Part shown: piece by piece, positions 3,447-29,350 of the stretch
How the letters are laid out: the number at the start of each line of letters is the position of its first letter
How positions within the stretch are numbered: position 1 is the stretch's first letter
Origin: Gottfriedia acidiceleris
Lineage (GTDB): Bacteria > Bacillota > Bacilli > Bacillales > Bacillaceae_G
Length of the DNA: 64,000 nucleotides
Assembly (NCBI RefSeq): GCF_002128425.1
Contig: NZ_NESS01000001.1
Location: 558,001 to 622,000 of the forward strand
Direction: 5' to 3'
The notes under the pieces: model-generated
Databases searched by the model: none
The model's input: only the letters and a program-made list of their open reading frames with translations
What the model was told of the DNA's origin: nothing
Made by a program: the position numbers and the translations under genes

Positions 3447-3650
3447 TTAACGAGCATATCCGCCTAGGCTTTGTTCTGCCATTTGAACTAGACGCTTAGT
3501 AATTTCCCCACCAACTGAACCGTTAGCGCGTGAAGTTGTGTCTGGTCCTAAGTGCACTCCAAATTCAGAAGCTATTTCGAACTTCATTTGCTCAATTGCT
3601 GAACTTGCATTTGGTGCAACATATTGATTTGAAGATCTTCTGTTTGCCAT
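3447..3650 (-). CDS. Alpha/beta-type small acid-soluble spore protein
   Basis: 67-residue SASP that would coat and protect DNA in the dormant spore and be degraded by the Gpr protease at germination. Family signatures are visible: the KFEIASEFG segment (Gpr cleavage region) near residue 23 and [22 protein letters not shown] near residue 34. It is monocistronic, with its own terminator. A match to a sigma-G/sigma-F promoter lies 55 to 84 bases upstream. The symbol among the ssp paralogues cannot be decided from sequence alone. Confidence 0.96.
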
Positions 3651-3704
3651 GTTGTCGACTCCTTTGTCTATTGGATGCTCTGATGTTGTTTATCAGATTA
3701 AAGA

Positions 3705-3734
3705 TAGTATGATTCTAAAAATTTATTCTATACA
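3705..3734 (-). promoter_or_regulatory. Forespore (sigma-G/F type) promoter of the SASP gene
   Basis: On the minus strand TGTATA (3734-3729) is followed after 17 bases by CATACTA (3711-3705). This agrees with the known forespore consensus (-35 GHATR, -10 CATnHTA) and sits at the right distance from the ATG. Confidence 0.7.
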
Positions 3735-3946
3735 TTTATTTACAAATTATTTTCTTTTTACCAGAAGTACTTCTTGTTACCATATGAAGTTTTTGTGTAT
3801 AAATATTTCCAAGATCAAAAACTTGTATTATGCCTTTAGATTTTCTATAATCTTAGCATACTGTATATAATTAAAACACAGTTTACAAAATGAAAACGTC
3901 TCGTTATTTCTATATATTGAAAAAAGGTTTTTAGGAGGAAAATTTT

Positions 3947-4984
3947 ATGATGAATAATCGTTTCCAAGATAAAGTTGCTAAGAATTTAAGTGAAATACCT
4001 TTATCTGTATTAGACTTAGCACCGGTTGTGGAAGGAAGCACTCCTGCTGATGCTTTTAAAAATAGTCTTGATTTAGCACAGCATGCTGAAAAATGGGGAT
4101 ATCACCGTTACTGGTTTGCCGAACATCATAATATGCCAGCTGTTGCAAGTTCAGCTACTTCAGTTGTAATTGGACATATTGCAAGTGGAACATCAACGAT
4201 TCGAGTTGGTTCTGGAGGAATCATGTTACCAAATCATGCTCCTTTAGTCATCGCAGAACAATTTGGTACATTAGAATCACTACATCCAGGTCGTATTGAT
4301 CTTGGGTTAGGTCGTGCCCCTGGTAGTGATATGTCAACAACAAGAGCGCTACGTAGGGATTTACGCAGCCATGAAGATTTCCCTGCTCAATTAGAGGAAT
4401 TACGTAATTACTTTAATCCTCCAGGAGGATTAGGCAGTACAACGGTTCAAGCCGTACCTGGCGAAGGTTTAAATATACCAGTTTGGTTATTAGGATCAAG
4501 TGGCTTTAGTGCTCAGTTAGCTGCTGAATTAGGATTACCATTCGCATTTGCAGCTCACTTCGCACCAGACTATACAGTTCAAGCAATGCAGTTGTATCAC
4601 AATAACTTTAAACCTTCTAATATTTTAGATGAACCATATGCAATGATTGGCTTAAATGTTGTCGTTGCTGACACTGATCAAGAAGCAAAAAGACTTTTCA
4701 CAACTCAGCAACAATCATTTTTAAACTTAGTTCGAGGTGGCAAACCAGCTCTATTAAAACCACCAGTTGACGATATGAATGAAATTTGGAGTCCATTTGA
4801 AAAAGAAACACTTGAAAATCAAATGAGACTATCTGCTATTGGTGCAATCGAAACGGTTACTGAAAAGCTACAAGCAGTTTTAAATATGACAAAAGCTGAT
4901 GAGATTATGGTTAATGGAACTGTTTTCGATCATGCGGCGCGTTTACATTCATATGAATTATTAAGTAAAGTATCAAATAAATAA
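3947..4984 (+). CDS. LLM-class flavin-dependent oxidoreductase (YwcH-like)
   Basis: 345-residue member of the luciferase-like monooxygenase family, group 1, close to B. subtilis YwcH. Diagnostic segments are [16 protein letters not shown] near 22, [15 protein letters not shown] near 56, [16 protein letters not shown] near 85 and [13 protein letters not shown] near 120. The family binds FMNH2 and oxygenates an organic substrate that is not predictable here. AGGAGGA precedes the ATG. It stands alone with its own terminator; the N terminus carries about 15 residues before the usual family start. Confidence 0.88.
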
Positions 4985-5708: not shown

Positions 5709-6137
5709 TTACCTTAAGCTTTTTCGATATTTATATTGATTCCATTGGAAATGAATATAGCATCCAATGCAAAATCCATTGATTGCAATAAACGATGCTA
5801 ATGCGACCATAATTGAAAACACATAAAATAATATGTTCCAACCAAATAATGCACCAATAAACGCTAGTGATAGGCAGGTTACTGCAATTGTTTGATTAAA
5901 ATTTTGTTGTACTTTATCCTCTTGTGGATAGCTCGATGGTTTCTTTTTTAAAAATCGTTTAGCAAATTTTATGATTGGATGGAAATCGAAAAGCAATCCA
6001 CTAAGGCCACTAATTAAAGGAATAAGTAATAGCCAGTACTGACCAGTGATCCAAGTTAAAATAACTGAAATAAAGATTGTCCATTGATTTGTACGAACTA
6101 GAGGTAATGGAATTGTATTTATTTTTGGATTAGACAT
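5709..6137 (-). CDS. DUF4395 membrane protein
   Basis: About 142 residues with four predicted membrane segments in two pairs (near 19-34, 35-50, 87-105 and 106-125). The C-terminal GFCIGCYIH motif with two close cysteines is characteristic of DUF4395. The function is unknown; some family members sit beside thioredoxin-like or rhodanese genes, but not here. ATG 6137 was chosen because the longer reading would start at a TTG with no spaced ribosome binding site; the AAAGG upstream is rather far, so the start is uncertain. Confidence 0.72.
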   Translation of the reverse strand: MSNPKINTIPLPLVRTNQWTIFISVILTWITGQYWLLLIPLISGLSGLLFDFHPIIKFAKRFLKKKPSSYPQEDKVQQNFNQTIAVTCLSLAFIGALFGWNILFYVFSIMVALASFIAINGFCIGCYIHFQWNQYKYRKSLR

Positions 6138-6250
6138 ACCAAAAACCAACCTTTCGTATCGGAATAATTAAGTATAATCATAATATGATTTCAAAAACAA
6201 TACAATCCATAAATCTGAAAAAAATTAAATTTATATTATAAAAACAAAAA

Positions 6251-6268
6251 ACGATCTAAATGATCGTT
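6251..6268 (-). terminator. Palindromic hairpin, left flank of the repeat array
   Basis: The sequence ACGATC-TAAAT-GATCGT(T). On the minus strand it is followed by TTTTTTGTTTTT, so it would stop transcripts moving left out of the array. The same 18 bases occur at 6683-6700. Confidence 0.7.
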
Positions 6269-6298
6269 CAAAATAAAACATAGTCAGTATGGAGGCCT

Positions 6299-6660
6299 AA
6301 GTAAGTAAAAACAATAAGATTTAAAGAACTTACTCATAACTGGTTCATGAGTAAGTAAAAAAGCTTAATATTGAAAAGTACTTACTCGTAACTGGTTCAT
6401 GAGTAAGCAAAAAAGCTAAATATTGAAAAGTACTTACTCATAACTGGTTCATGAGTAAGTATTAAAGCTAAAAAACGAAAAGTACTTACTCATAAAAGGT
6501 TCATGAGTAAGTATTAAAGCAAAATATTGAAAACAACTTACTCATAACTAGTTCATGAGTAAGTTTAATAGCTAAAATATAAAAAGAACTTACTCATAAC
6601 TAGTTCTTGAGTAAGCAAAAAAAACAAAATAATGAAAAGAACATAATAATGTCGATGACA
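6299..6660. repeat. Tandem array of six hairpin units, exact 52-bp period
   Basis: Each unit holds CTTACTCAT, a 9-base loop (mostly AACTGGTTC) and ATGAGTAAG, followed by an A/T-rich linker with an AAAGC...GAAAA pattern. The left arms start at 6329, 6381, 6433, 6485, 6537 and 6589, exactly 52 bases apart. Changes within stems are few: one would give a G-U pair in RNA (unit 2) and one opens the innermost pair (unit 6). A partial unit precedes the first and a decayed one follows the last. The linkers resemble one another, unlike CRISPR spacers. No reading frame runs through the array. Confidence 0.95.
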
Positions 6661-6682
6661 AACCATTTTTCAACAGTCTGAA

Positions 6683-6700
6683 ACGATCTAAATGATCGTT
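6683..6700 (+). terminator. Palindromic hairpin, right flank of the repeat array
   Basis: Identical 18 bases to 6251-6268. On the plus strand it runs into TTTTAGTTTTT, so it best stops rightward transcripts; it also lies just past the cdaS stop and could serve that gene weakly. Confidence 0.65.
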
Positions 6701-6707
6701 TTAGTTT

Positions 6708-7334
6708 TTAATTAATAGGTGCTCCATATTGAACAGGATATAAGCTTCCTTTATAAGCGAATGATATATTTCCTGTTTCTTCTGATACTACTAACGCAAG
6801 TGCATCGCTTTGTTCTGAAATTCCAACTGCTGCTCGGTGCCTTGTTCCAAGTTTTTTATTATCGTATGTAATTTTTGATAGTGGAAGTACATTACCAGCG
6901 GAAATGATCATGTTATTTTCAATGAGTACTGCTCCGTCATGTAATGGGCTACCTGGATAAAAAATTGATTCTAATAGTGCTGGAGATAGTTTTGCACCGA
7001 CGTGGATCCCAGAACTCATTAATTCTTCAAGTGAGTCATTTCTTTTTACAACAATTAATGCGCCATGTTTACGTTTGGATAAGTGTTGAACTGTGATTGT
7101 CAATTCATCAAAGATATCAGTATATGGAGATAGATATGAATTTAAATAAAATGAGGCTGCGTCCATTTGTAAATTATTAAAGACTCGATGGATATTTTCA
7201 AATTCAGTTAATATGCCGCATCCTTTATTTTCAATTCTTCCAATCATGCCTTCGATTTTTAAATTAAGTTGAGTTAGTGTTTGAGTTATATTTTTTCTTA
7301 CAGTAGGGTTTAATTGAGACTCGAATTCATCCAT
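6708..7334 (-). CDS. cdaS: Sporulation-type diadenylate cyclase CdaS
   Basis: 208 residues from ATG 7334, matching the size of B. subtilis CdaS (YojJ). It condenses two ATP into c-di-AMP. The N-terminal ~60 residues are two helices, the known autoinhibitory region of CdaS. The DAC (DisA_N) domain follows, with LHDGA at about 131-135 and TRHRAA at about 164-169, both intact. There are no membrane segments, unlike CdaA, and no DNA-binding domain, unlike DisA. A strong GGAGG lies about 30 bases upstream of this ATG, too far to serve it, so a longer or non-AUG start remains possible. In B. subtilis the gene is forespore-expressed; no clear sigma-G site was seen here. Confidence 0.88.
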   Translation of the reverse strand: MDEFESQLNPTVRKNITQTLTQLNLKIEGMIGRIENKGCGILTEFENIHRVFNNLQMDAASFYLNSYLSPYTDIFDELTITVQHLSKRKHGALIVVKRNDSLEELMSSGIHVGAKLSPALLESIFYPGSPLHDGAVLIENNMIISAGNVLPLSKITYDNKKLGTRHRAAVGISEQSDALALVVSEETGNISFAYKGSLYPVQYGAPIN

Positions 7335-7457
7335 TCCAATGTCATCTCTCTTTCGAACCGAATTACCTCCACTTAAGTTTCCCAAAGGTCGCTATGTTAT
7401 ACGTATTATCCCCCTTGGTTTTGAAACAATAAAGATTGATAGTCCGTAACGAGTTGA

Positions 7458-7844
7458 TTATCTTGCTGCCCATGCTTCTACTTCTATTTTAATATCTGGA
7501 TTTGCTAAAGCTGAAACATAAGCATAAGTTGTTGCAGGTGGGTTACCAGAATGAAATTGGCTCCAACAGTCTAAAAAGAATTGGCGATCGATTTTCTCTG
7601 TTAGCCAAAAGTTTAGTTTGAAAAGATTACTAATCTCAACTTTTTCACTCTCAAGGATGTTTTTTATATTCTCAAGTGCATTGACGAATTGGCTTTCGAT
7701 ATCATTTGGAAATTTTCCGTTTTTGTCGTTTCCTACTTGACCTGATAATACGACAAGCTCTGCATGTCTTGGGACAATTGTGACATGACTGTATTGTCCA
7801 ACAGGTGCTGCAACTGTTTCAGGGTTTACTTTTTTAATTTTCAT
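7458..7844 (-). CDS. RidA family protein (YjgF/UK114)
   Basis: 128 residues. RidA enzymes hydrolyse reactive enamines and imines released by PLP enzymes. The family pattern PVGQYSHV near 12, LVVLSGQVG near 29, a central ANALENIKNIL-like helix and PATTYAYVSALANPDIKIEVEAWA at the end is present. However, the catalytic Arg normally found before the conserved C-terminal strand (PxRxxV) is replaced by the TTYAYV sequence, so this is likely a divergent Rid subgroup. GGAGG stands seven bases before ATG 7844; a 12-residue longer reading lacks such a site. Confidence 0.8.
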   Translation of the reverse strand: MKIKKVNPETVAAPVGQYSHVTIVPRHAELVVLSGQVGNDKNGKFPNDIESQFVNALENIKNILESEKVEISNLFKLNFWLTEKIDRQFFLDCWSQFHSGNPPATTYAYVSALANPDIKIEVEAWAAR

Positions 7845-12908: not shown

Positions 12909-14096
12909 TTATTTACTTAATGCATTACTTACTATTTTTGAGTCTAAAAATGGAATCACGGAAATAATTTCGCTAATGCCATGTTTTGATATAGCATCTA
13001 AAGCAAGTTCATTAAGTAGGTCACCTTCAATAAATGGACAGATTGGTGCTAAAGACTTAATCCCATTTAACACATAACTCTTTCTTGTGCATTCATCAAT
13101 TATTTCGTCACTAATAAATGGTGCCATTGATGCTAGTCCTTTTATACCATTCATTTCAAACTCTTTCTTTGCACATTCATCGATTATTTCGTCACTGATA
13201 AATGCTGCCATTGATGTTATTTCTTTTATGCCACCTATCTCAAACTCTTTCTTTGCACATTCATCGATGATCTCGTCGCTGATAAATGGTGCCACCTGTG
13301 TTAATCCTTTTATACCATTCGTTTCAAACTCTTTCTTTGCACATTCATCAATGATTTTGTTACTAATAAATGGTGCCACCTGTGTTAATCCTTTTATACC
13401 ACCTGTTTCAAACTCTTTCTTTGCACATTCATCAATTACTTCTTCGCTAATAAATGGTGCCAAAGTTGTTAAACCCTTTATTCCATTCGTTTCAAACTCT
13501 TTCTTCGCTAATTCGTCAATTAATTCCTTACTAATAAACGGTGCAACCTGAGTTAATTCTTTAATTCCTTTTGACTCAAACTCTTTCTTCGCTAATTCAT
13601 CAATTACATCTGTACTAATATAAGGTGCCATACGTGATAATTCTTTGATTCCATTCGAATTAAATTCTTTCTTTGCACATTCATCAATTATCTCTTCACT
13701 AACAAATGGCGCAATATCTGATGCATCAATAATTGTAAGATTCTTCTCAACGTTTCTAAAAACGATGTCTGCTTGATCGATATTAAGAATCGGAGCCACA
13801 TTTAAAAAATCTTCTTTTTCCACTTCTAACTCAAATGAAGAATCAGGATTATCTTTTTCTATTAGATTATTGATCAACTTAATCCCTTTTTCATTTCCTA
13901 AAATTTCATCAATACTTACATTAAAAATCTCTGCAAGCTCGGGTAATTTTGAAATATCTGGCATCGTCTCTCCCCGTTCCCAGTTACTAATTGCTTGAAA
14001 GCTAACACCTAATTGATCAGCTAGCTTCATCTGTGTAATCTTGTTTGCTTTTCTTAATTGAGCGATTTGTCTACCTACTTTTTTCATGTCAAACAT
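12909..14096 (-). CDS. XRE-family regulator with about ten 28-residue helical repeats
   Basis: 395 residues. Residues 1-60 are a Cro/CI helix-turn-helix (VGRQIAQLRKANKITQMKLADQLGVSFQAISNWERGETMPDISKLPELAEIFNVSIDEIL). From about residue 100 to the end there are about nine and a half tandem repeats of 28 residues, consensus (V/M)APFIS.EIIDECAKKEFE..GIKGLTQ, the middle ones nearly identical in DNA. They probably stack into an alpha-solenoid for ligand or protein binding. ATG 14096 follows AGAGGTGAT; an upstream GTG lies inside that site. An inverted repeat 67-98 bases upstream suggests autoregulation. Target genes unknown. Confidence 0.85.
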   Translation of the reverse strand: MFDMKKVGRQIAQLRKANKITQMKLADQLGVSFQAISNWERGETMPDISKLPELAEIFNVSIDEILGNEKGIKLINNLIEKDNPDSSFELEVEKEDFLNVAPILNIDQADIVFRNVEKNLTIIDASDIAPFVSEEIIDECAKKEFNSNGIKELSRMAPYISTDVIDELAKKEFESKGIKELTQVAPFISKELIDELAKKEFETNGIKGLTTLAPFISEEVIDECAKKEFETGGIKGLTQVAPFISNKIIDECAKKEFETNGIKGLTQVAPFISDEIIDECAKKEFEIGGIKEITSMAAFISDEIIDECAKKEFEMNGIKGLASMAPFISDEIIDECTRKSYVLNGIKSLAPICPFIEGDLLNELALDAISKHGISEIISVIPFLDSKIVSNALSK

Positions 14097-14162
14097 TTCT
14101 ATCACCTCTATTTAAAAGTTAATTTCATTGTATCTAGTTATTTGAATAGTTAAAATCAAGCG

Positions 14163-15991: not shown

Positions 15992-16033
15992 ATTGATTGG
16001 AATTTGGAATAGATTGTAATTACTATTCAAGCA

Positions 16034-16270
16034 AGTGCAAATAAATTTGTGGAAATCGCAATTAAAAATGGCAAATCTGCAATTAAATTCCAGGTATCGC
16101 AATTAACTTTACTTACTCTGCAATTAAACTATTGTTGCAAGTATTAAAGCAAGTTCAAATAAAAACTCGGAATCGCAATTAAAAATGGCAAATCTGCAAT
16201 TAAAATTCAGGAATCGCTATTAAAAATCTGTAATAGCAATTAAAAGTATGAAAAACGCAATTAAACTAGA
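16034..16270. repeat. Array of GCAATTAA motifs with 20-21-bp phasing
   Basis: GCAATTAA or a one-base variant (GCTATTAA at 16216) occurs at 16058, 16079, 16099, 16120, 16175, 16196, 16216, 16236 and 16257, two helical turns apart. A higher-order copy of about 117 bp is present: CAAGTGCAAATAAA near 16033 and CAAGTTCAAATAAA near 16150 start parallel series. The region has no gene. Confidence 0.85.
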
Positions 16271-28471: not shown

Positions 28472-29350
28472 ATGGATCATATTTCACCGAACAAAATAAA
28501 GATAAAAGGAAATATCTGGCCTAAAAATACTATAGCGGCTGGTTATCGTCATAGCGTCGGACTTAAATCGGATGGCACGGTTACAGCTGTGGGTGATAAT
28601 AAATATGGAAAAGTTGATGTAAGCGATTGGCGAAATATTGTAGCAGTTGCGGCGGGTAACGCTCACACGGGTAATTCTCATACCATTGGGCTTAAATCAG
28701 ACGGAACTGTTGTGGCTGTGGGATGGAATAAGCATGAACAATGCAATGTAAGTGAATGGCGTGATATTGTGGCGATTTCGGCCGGTTGGCGTCGTTCAGT
28801 CGGGCTTAAATCGGATGGTACGGTTGTAGCTATAGGCCGAAACAATGATGGTCAGTGCAATGTAAGCGATTGGCACAACATAGTGGCAACAACGGCAGGT
28901 GACTGGCATACTGTTGGACTTAATTCGAATGGCTTGGTTACAACCGTGGGTAATAATCGGTATGGCCAATGCAAAGTAAGTGAATGGCAAGATATTGTGG
29001 CGGTTTCAGCGGGATATCTTCATACCGTCGGGCTTAAATCAGATGGCACGGTTGTAGCTGTCGGATTGAATAAGGATGGCCAATGCGATGTAAGTGGTTG
29101 GCACGACATAGTGGCGATTTCGGCGGGTAGTAATCATACGATTGGACTTAAATCGAACGGTTCTGTTATAGCTGCGGGGTTGAATAGGCATGGTCAATGT
29201 AATGTAAGTGACTGGTGCGATATTGTAGCGATTTCGGCGGGTTGCACTCATACTCTCGGACTTAAATCGGATGGCACTATGGTTGCAGCGGGTAGTAATG
29301 AATTTAGCCAATGTGATGTAAGTAGCTGGCACGGTATCAAACTGCCGTAA
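28472..29350 (+). CDS. RCC1-like seven-bladed beta-propeller protein
   Basis: 292 residues made of seven 38-residue repeats, consensus HTVGLKSDGTVVAVG.NK.GQCNVS.W.DIVAISAG. This is the RCC1-type repeat. The short N-terminal strand NTIAAGYR matches the last strand of a repeat that is missing from repeat seven, so the ring is closed by the usual velcro. No signal peptide or catalytic domain is present. The Trp-rich, cysteine-bearing loops are conserved between copies. The DNA is more G+C-rich than its neighbours and the copies are similar, suggesting recent expansion or transfer. Function unknown, probably protein binding. Confidence 0.85.
   Translation: MDHISPNKIKIKGNIWPKNTIAAGYRHSVGLKSDGTVTAVGDNKYGKVDVSDWRNIVAVAAGNAHTGNSHTIGLKSDGTVVAVGWNKHEQCNVSEWRDIVAISAGWRRSVGLKSDGTVVAIGRNNDGQCNVSDWHNIVATTAGDWHTVGLNSNGLVTTVGNNRYGQCKVSEWQDIVAVSAGYLHTVGLKSDGTVVAVGLNKDGQCDVSGWHDIVAISAGSNHTIGLKSNGSVIAAGLNRHGQCNVSDWCDIVAISAGCTHTLGLKSDGTMVAAGSNEFSQCDVSSWHGIKLP

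Follow-up and report, generated by a model that had tools for sequence, protein, structure and literature searches.

Dispersed arrays of a 52-bp palindromic DNA unit, putatively protein-bound, in Gottfriedia and a few other Bacillales genera

The array beside cdaS and its surroundings

The window, a stretch of 64,000 nucleotides of Gottfriedia acidiceleris DNA, contains a tandem array of palindromic units flanked by two genes, both on the minus strand: cdaS (6708..7385), a diadenylate cyclase gene that lies outside the element and whose identity, as originally predicted, is borne out by Pfam matches to DAC and CdaS_N, and a DUF4395 gene recognized by domain search (5709..6149). Tandem Repeats Finder places the entire array at 6323..6642, with the A-rich linkers on the plus strand, a period of 52, 6.1 copies, 84% matches and 1% indels. 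Each of the six units carries a dyad of arms CTTACTCAT and ATGAGTAAG around a 9-nt loop. In the sequence and by unit-pattern search, the plus-strand dyads map to 6329..6355 (unit 1, CTTACTCAT-9 nt-ATGAGTAAG), 6381..6407 (unit 2), 6433..6459 (unit 3), 6485..6511 (unit 4), 6537..6563 (unit 5) and 6589..6615 (unit 6); the left arms, which begin at the first position of each of these intervals, are spaced by exactly 52 bp, so that the original prediction of six units with an exact 52-bp period holds. The left arm of unit 2 is CTCGT, which confirms the claim that this change would still pair, as G-U, in plus-strand RNA; the right arm of unit 6 is TTGAG, a mismatch that had gone unremarked. Also as predicted, the array lacks an open reading frame (none of at least 60 aa overlaps it), and a coding repeat was rejected on this ground. 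The search of the whole window against Rfam at the gathering threshold returned no matches.

A 20-bp hairpin is present as identical copies on either side of the array (6251-6270 and 6683-6702). The copy between the array and cdaS (AACGATCTAAATGATCGTT, 6683..6702) scores as terminator-like on the plus strand and has no T-run on the cdaS (minus) strand, so that transcription of cdaS might read through into the array in this genome, where no terminator was counted between the gene and the array. The second copy, beyond the array, is terminator-like on the minus strand (6249..6270), as are three of the six array units. At the cdaS locus of another genome of the genus (G011, L093), the equivalent hairpin is likewise duplicated, and its copies enclose a different insertion, which has inverted ends of the TTTCAGACTG type.

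The window holds other repeats as well. Positions 16025-16265 are occupied by another tandem family, in which a GCAATTAAAA-like motif recurs at intervals of about 20 bp, or approximately two helical turns; this family is also present at L157 (2150-2248) and L172 (4899-5041), and in G012 (L236) similar motifs occur at scattered positions downstream of a gene. Repeats of 84 bp at 13076-13709 are in the coding frame of a minus-strand ORF (12909-14105) for a predicted repeat protein with a helix-turn-helix-like start, and the 114/228-bp repeats at 28678-29333 are probably coding.

Dispersal, placement and turnover of the arrays

The array beside cdaS is one member of a genome-wide family and not a feature of cdaS. 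When up to 3 mismatches are allowed, the pattern of a single unit is matched 98 times on the forward and 102 times on the reverse strand of the 4.77-Mb genome (G000); given that the pattern is nearly palindromic, one unit may be counted on both strands. The reversed-pattern control gave 0 forward and 0 reverse matches, so that the family is not a product of chance. The unit occurs at at least 26 places, most of which are arrays in 52-bp steps; four of these places are at contig ends and may represent two split arrays (L063 with L065 and L071 with L083), a pairing that rests on unit likeness. Altogether, this genome carries at least 126 distinct units at 24 loci, which are intergenic. With up to 1 mismatch, the single-unit pattern matches 12 of the 13 genomes of the genus, this one included (G003 and G005 only once each), and two adjacent units at period 52 are found in 10 of the 13, again including this one, with no adjacent units found in G003, G005 and G007. 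Contigs named Gottfriedia luciferensis carry these arrays too, on which basis the genus is taken to be Gottfriedia. The search of the genus for other loci and copy-number variation that had been proposed with the original prediction uncovered both.

Outside the genus, the distribution is narrow. When 84,980 species were scanned for two adjacent units separated by a gap of variable length, 65 stretches were obtained, from Gottfriedia, Bacillus sp. strains, Bacillus marasmi, Lederbergia citrea, Bacillus sp. 7884-1 and Bacillus sp. Marseille-Q3570. A looser two-unit pattern matched 19 of 397 genomes across the order, which belong to 4 of 135 genera and include 7 of the 14 sampled genomes of one genus (g14); the reversed control matched 0. 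Across the phylum, the two-unit pattern matched 1 of 398 genomes, namely, G. acidiceleris itself. In a few other Bacillales genera, arrays with period 52, sometimes 51, have different linkers and outer arms, the shared CTCAT/ATGAG core being imposed by the search pattern. Arrays with other cores and the same period emerged from motif-free runs of Tandem Repeats Finder on the fetched DNA, in B. marasmi (L117 at 512-995, 6429-6701 and 7424-7541; L121 at 3469-3992) and in g14 (L203 at 2517-2778); the L087 array also has period 52 without motif selection. The outer pairs, that is, the sixth to eleventh counting outward from the loop, differ on both sides between lineages (A-T, T-A, G-C, C-G), as in the arms TGAACTCAT, TTGTCCTCAT and GTACTCAT. 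We found no description of 52-bp palindrome arrays in the literature. A viral origin was rejected, the two matches in a viral scan both being unrelated repeats on reading, as was a plasmid origin, for which there was no match.

The arrays usually lie beyond the terminator of the neighboring gene, in either orientation. The 20 arrays of the G. acidiceleris genome with both flanks available include 13 between tandem, 5 between convergent and 2 between divergent genes, and 11 of the 13 in tandem settings are nearer to the 3' end of the upstream gene. Elsewhere, 60 arrays with both flanks (6 further ones are at contig edges) are divided into 37 tandem, 18 convergent and 5 divergent cases, with 25 of the 37 nearer to the upstream 3' end. 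Over all 80 arrays, the counts are 50 tandem, 23 convergent and 7 divergent, an excess of convergent pairs that is given without a genome-wide background and with some orthologous arrays counted more than once. Of 27 gene ends in G. acidiceleris, 19 have a terminator-like hairpin between the stop codon and the array (in one case, the array's own hairpin), compared with 21 of 108 random segments; elsewhere, the figure is 52 of 73, without a control. Relative to the 3'-adjacent gene, the two orientations are represented 9 to 8 (p=1), with no strand preference; the orientation of one array (L064) differs between two assignment rules. A link to one gene family was considered and rejected: among 20 flanking proteins, 19 or more are unlike, with arginase appearing twice.

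Between species, an array often retains its locus, orientation and period while its sequence and its number of units change, and at some sites the array has been lost. Across 20 syntenic array pairs, each comparing G. acidiceleris with another genome, the identity of flank plus array is 81-92% and that of the unit consensus 54-87%, with period 52 on both sides in every pair; the same orientation is clearly the better one in 17 of the 20, the exceptions being L078-L116, L078-L158 and L084-L138. Because the loci in this comparison had been fetched for having arrays, two less biased sites were also read. Downstream of the L068 gene, 6 of 13 genomes have an array (3 to 10 units), G010 has a decayed remnant and 6 have none. 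Downstream of the L082 gene, there are arrays in 3 genomes, remnants in G006 and G002, and none in 5, the site being unread in the remaining 3 (contig ends in G008 and G010; no orthologue aligned in G003). The cdaS locus with the DUF4395 neighbor is present in 6 genomes: three of them (G. acidiceleris, G006 and G010) carry arrays, whose units differ, two (G001 and G012) have no array, and G011 has the other insertion described above. In G006, both sides of the arms are changed in all units (CCTCAT..ATGAGG versus ACTCAT..ATGAGT), and the array follows a terminator whose T-run is intact; the palindrome of the G010 consensus has decayed. The array sites are individually dispensable.

In four genomes (G001, G007, G011 and G012; L214, L221, L223 and L224), the L068 slot contains other, GC-richer sequence. 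These sequences share words such as GAGACCCC or GGAAAGCGAG and perhaps represent another dispersed repeat.

Constraint on the period and the possible mode of action

The period of these arrays is nearly invariant. When the gap was left variable, so that any period from 42 to 62 was allowed, 128 of 135 two-unit matches had period 52. Arrays with 2.8 or more copies gave 98 distinct consensus units; 89 of these have period 52 and 9 have 51, with nothing else between 45 and 60. For 12 of the 98, the search itself had set the period to 52; the consensus units free of the fixed-52 bias (18 from the single-unit search and 2 from cdaS loci) all have period 52. Individual units in G. acidiceleris are exactly 52 long in 90 of 102 cases. 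Adjacent units are of equal length in 64 of 80 pairs; for 52-bp windows of orthologous noncoding DNA, this holds in 89 of 163 cases (Fisher p 1.2e-4; divergence 12.2% for unit pairs and 10.3% for the windows). In gapped alignments, the difference is smaller, with 7.7 substitutions per gap event between adjacent units and 5.6 in the flanks. The depletion of indels in the arrays is a moderate effect. ORFs running through some 51-bp arrays were set aside as a likely consequence of 51 being divisible by three.

A length of 51-52 bp corresponds to about five turns of the DNA helix. When the core was kept fixed and the linker alone was shuffled, the A/T content of the linkers had more power at the fifth harmonic (10.4 or 10.2 bp) than the shuffles in each of five groups of arrays (z of 7.4, 13.8, 3.6, 5.6 and 5.0), the sole harmonic with z above 3 in every group; the seventh is also raised in three groups and the twelfth in two. 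This was a post hoc test, and the Gottfriedia arrays are related to one another, so that its independent weight lies in the smaller groups. The persistence of a period of five helical turns through the turnover of the unit sequence between species points to a constraint on DNA geometry. The family is a geometry-constrained, orientation-indifferent, mostly post-terminator DNA repeat.

Could the arrays instead function as RNA, in the form of a hairpin-rich 3' UTR, a fail-safe terminator array or a processed non-coding RNA? Predicted folding of the array beside cdaS is strong on both strands (z of -10.97 and -8.86), which favors an RNA element, though any palindromic array would fold in this manner; the three terminator-like units on the minus strand and the possible read-through from cdaS count in the same direction. 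However, the core pairs, read on the A-rich strand, include 63 G-U against 54 A-C combinations, no excess of the former and no sign in the core-pair counts of selection on RNA pairing for either strand, and core pairing within Gottfriedia is no better than expected from column independence. The equal frequency of the two orientations, the usual position beyond a terminator, the intact terminator before the array in G006 and the lack of an Rfam match in the window also speak against an RNA element, which we regard as improbable. Intrinsic terminators would not describe the arrays either: half of the units beside cdaS resemble terminators on the minus strand, whereas arrays in general face either way and usually follow a terminator. 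Of the three original readings, the phased protein-binding array fits best, being consistent with the 52/51 period across lineages, the 10.4-bp phase of linker A/T and the indifference to orientation; the processed non-coding RNA is disfavored by core-pair changes without G-U excess and by the absence of Rfam matches in the window; and a 3' UTR of cdaS fails as a general role given that the G006 array at the same locus follows an intact terminator and that the family adjoins unrelated genes. The arrays probably work as DNA, bound by a putative protein, rather than as RNA.

The main rival to such a DNA-level mechanism, and one that is nearly as likely, is a neutral or selfish satellite: a palindromic 52-bp unit would have spread to permissive sites behind terminators and would expand and shrink through slippage and unequal recombination, with a period simply inherited from the founder. 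Copy numbers that vary, between or within genomes, from 0 to some 126 distinct units, the loss and decay at orthologous sites (L068, L082 and cdaS), the lack of a gene-family link among the 20 flanking proteins and the occupation of the same slots by other repeats in some genomes are all readily accommodated by a satellite. The same explanation is less comfortable with a period that holds at 51-52 while syntenic consensus units diverge by 13-46%, with the depletion of indels between adjacent units, with the A/T phase near 10.4 bp in five of five groups and with a dyad that is kept while its outer pairs differ between lineages. The gain and loss of arrays at orthologous sites, the decay of the palindrome in G010, the lack of adjacent units in G003, G005 and G007 and, within Gottfriedia, core pairing no better than column independence predicts in turn weigh against a DNA-level mechanism.

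On balance, we tentatively prefer to view these loci as dispersed extragenic arrays of a 52-bp DNA unit that may be bound by a protein and may bend DNA or take up supercoils. The unit consists of the dyad CTCAT-N9-ATGAG and an A-rich linker, and, at about five helical turns per unit, successive dyads would face one side of the helix. A symmetric candidate protein that bends DNA or manages its topology, such as a nucleoid protein or a topoisomerase, could bind the dyads, and the array would then bend or wrap the DNA or take up supercoils between transcription units, as has been proposed for the BIMEs of enterobacteria, and so serve DNA topology or insulate these units from each other. A more ambitious version of this proposal, which we consider rather doubtful, posits a new chromosome-organizing system in some Bacillales, whereby a dedicated dimeric protein coats the helically phased dyad arrays between transcription units and insulates neighbors or absorbs supercoils through a bent or wrapped nucleoprotein structure; within each lineage, the protein and its target arms would have co-evolved. 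Tandem repeats in bacteria tend to be passed over as mere genotyping markers; if the binding protein exists, these arrays would be ready-made targets for a new Gram-positive nucleoid or insulator protein, and their copy-number variation between close species would provide natural experiments.

Relation to known repeat systems

Several known classes of repeats resemble these arrays in part. MIRU and other bacterial minisatellites are dispersed intergenic tandem arrays of variable copy number; the 52-bp arrays differ in that the dyad and the helical period are kept across genera with near-complete turnover of the linker. The BOX elements of pneumococcus are tandem modules with stem-loop potential located between genes, whereas in the 52-bp arrays there are no A/B/C modules and all units are alike. 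With CRISPR, the arrays share regularly spaced palindromic repeats; the linkers resemble each other, as had been noted in setting this identification aside from the outset, and CRISPR was rejected because the linkers align within arrays and evolve in concert, with no spacer diversity. MITEs are defined by terminal inverted repeats and a target-site duplication; at two loci of the genus, a 20-bp hairpin is duplicated, around the array beside cdaS and around the different insertion in G011.

The closest comparison is with REP palindromes and BIMEs, which are likewise extragenic, palindromic and present in high copy, and which cluster at regular spacing close to the ends of genes. Mobilization of such palindromes by a RAYT (Y1 transposase) would account for clustered, high-copy extragenic units, and some observations are in line with it: of the 80 G. 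acidiceleris units tested, 14 have GTAG, which like CGTC is a tag at the foot of the REP stem, in the 8 nt preceding the core, and Y1_Tnp matches are present in 25 of 30 genomes searched. Nevertheless, we consider this origin highly improbable: 66 of the 80 units have no GTAG in that position, the array-rich genomes G004 and G009 (and also G012) have no Y1_Tnp (PF01797) match, the single match in G. acidiceleris (G000:C12:212891-213118) is interrupted by a stop, Y1_Tnp is found in g14 genomes both with and without arrays, and the units run head-to-tail, not alternating, in the arrays listed. The high-copy extragenic palindromes are shared with REP/BIME, a consistent GTAG tag and the alternating orientation are not, and a RAYT is not required; the 52-bp arrays differ further in the fixed period of 51-52 bp, the A-rich phased linker, the mostly post-terminator position and their occurrence in Bacillales. 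The REP/BIME elements of enterobacteria are thought to bind gyrase, IHF and Pol I, according to work cited in PMC2817692. While we would not file the 52-bp arrays as REP/BIME, BIMEs appear to be their nearest analogue in the way they would work.
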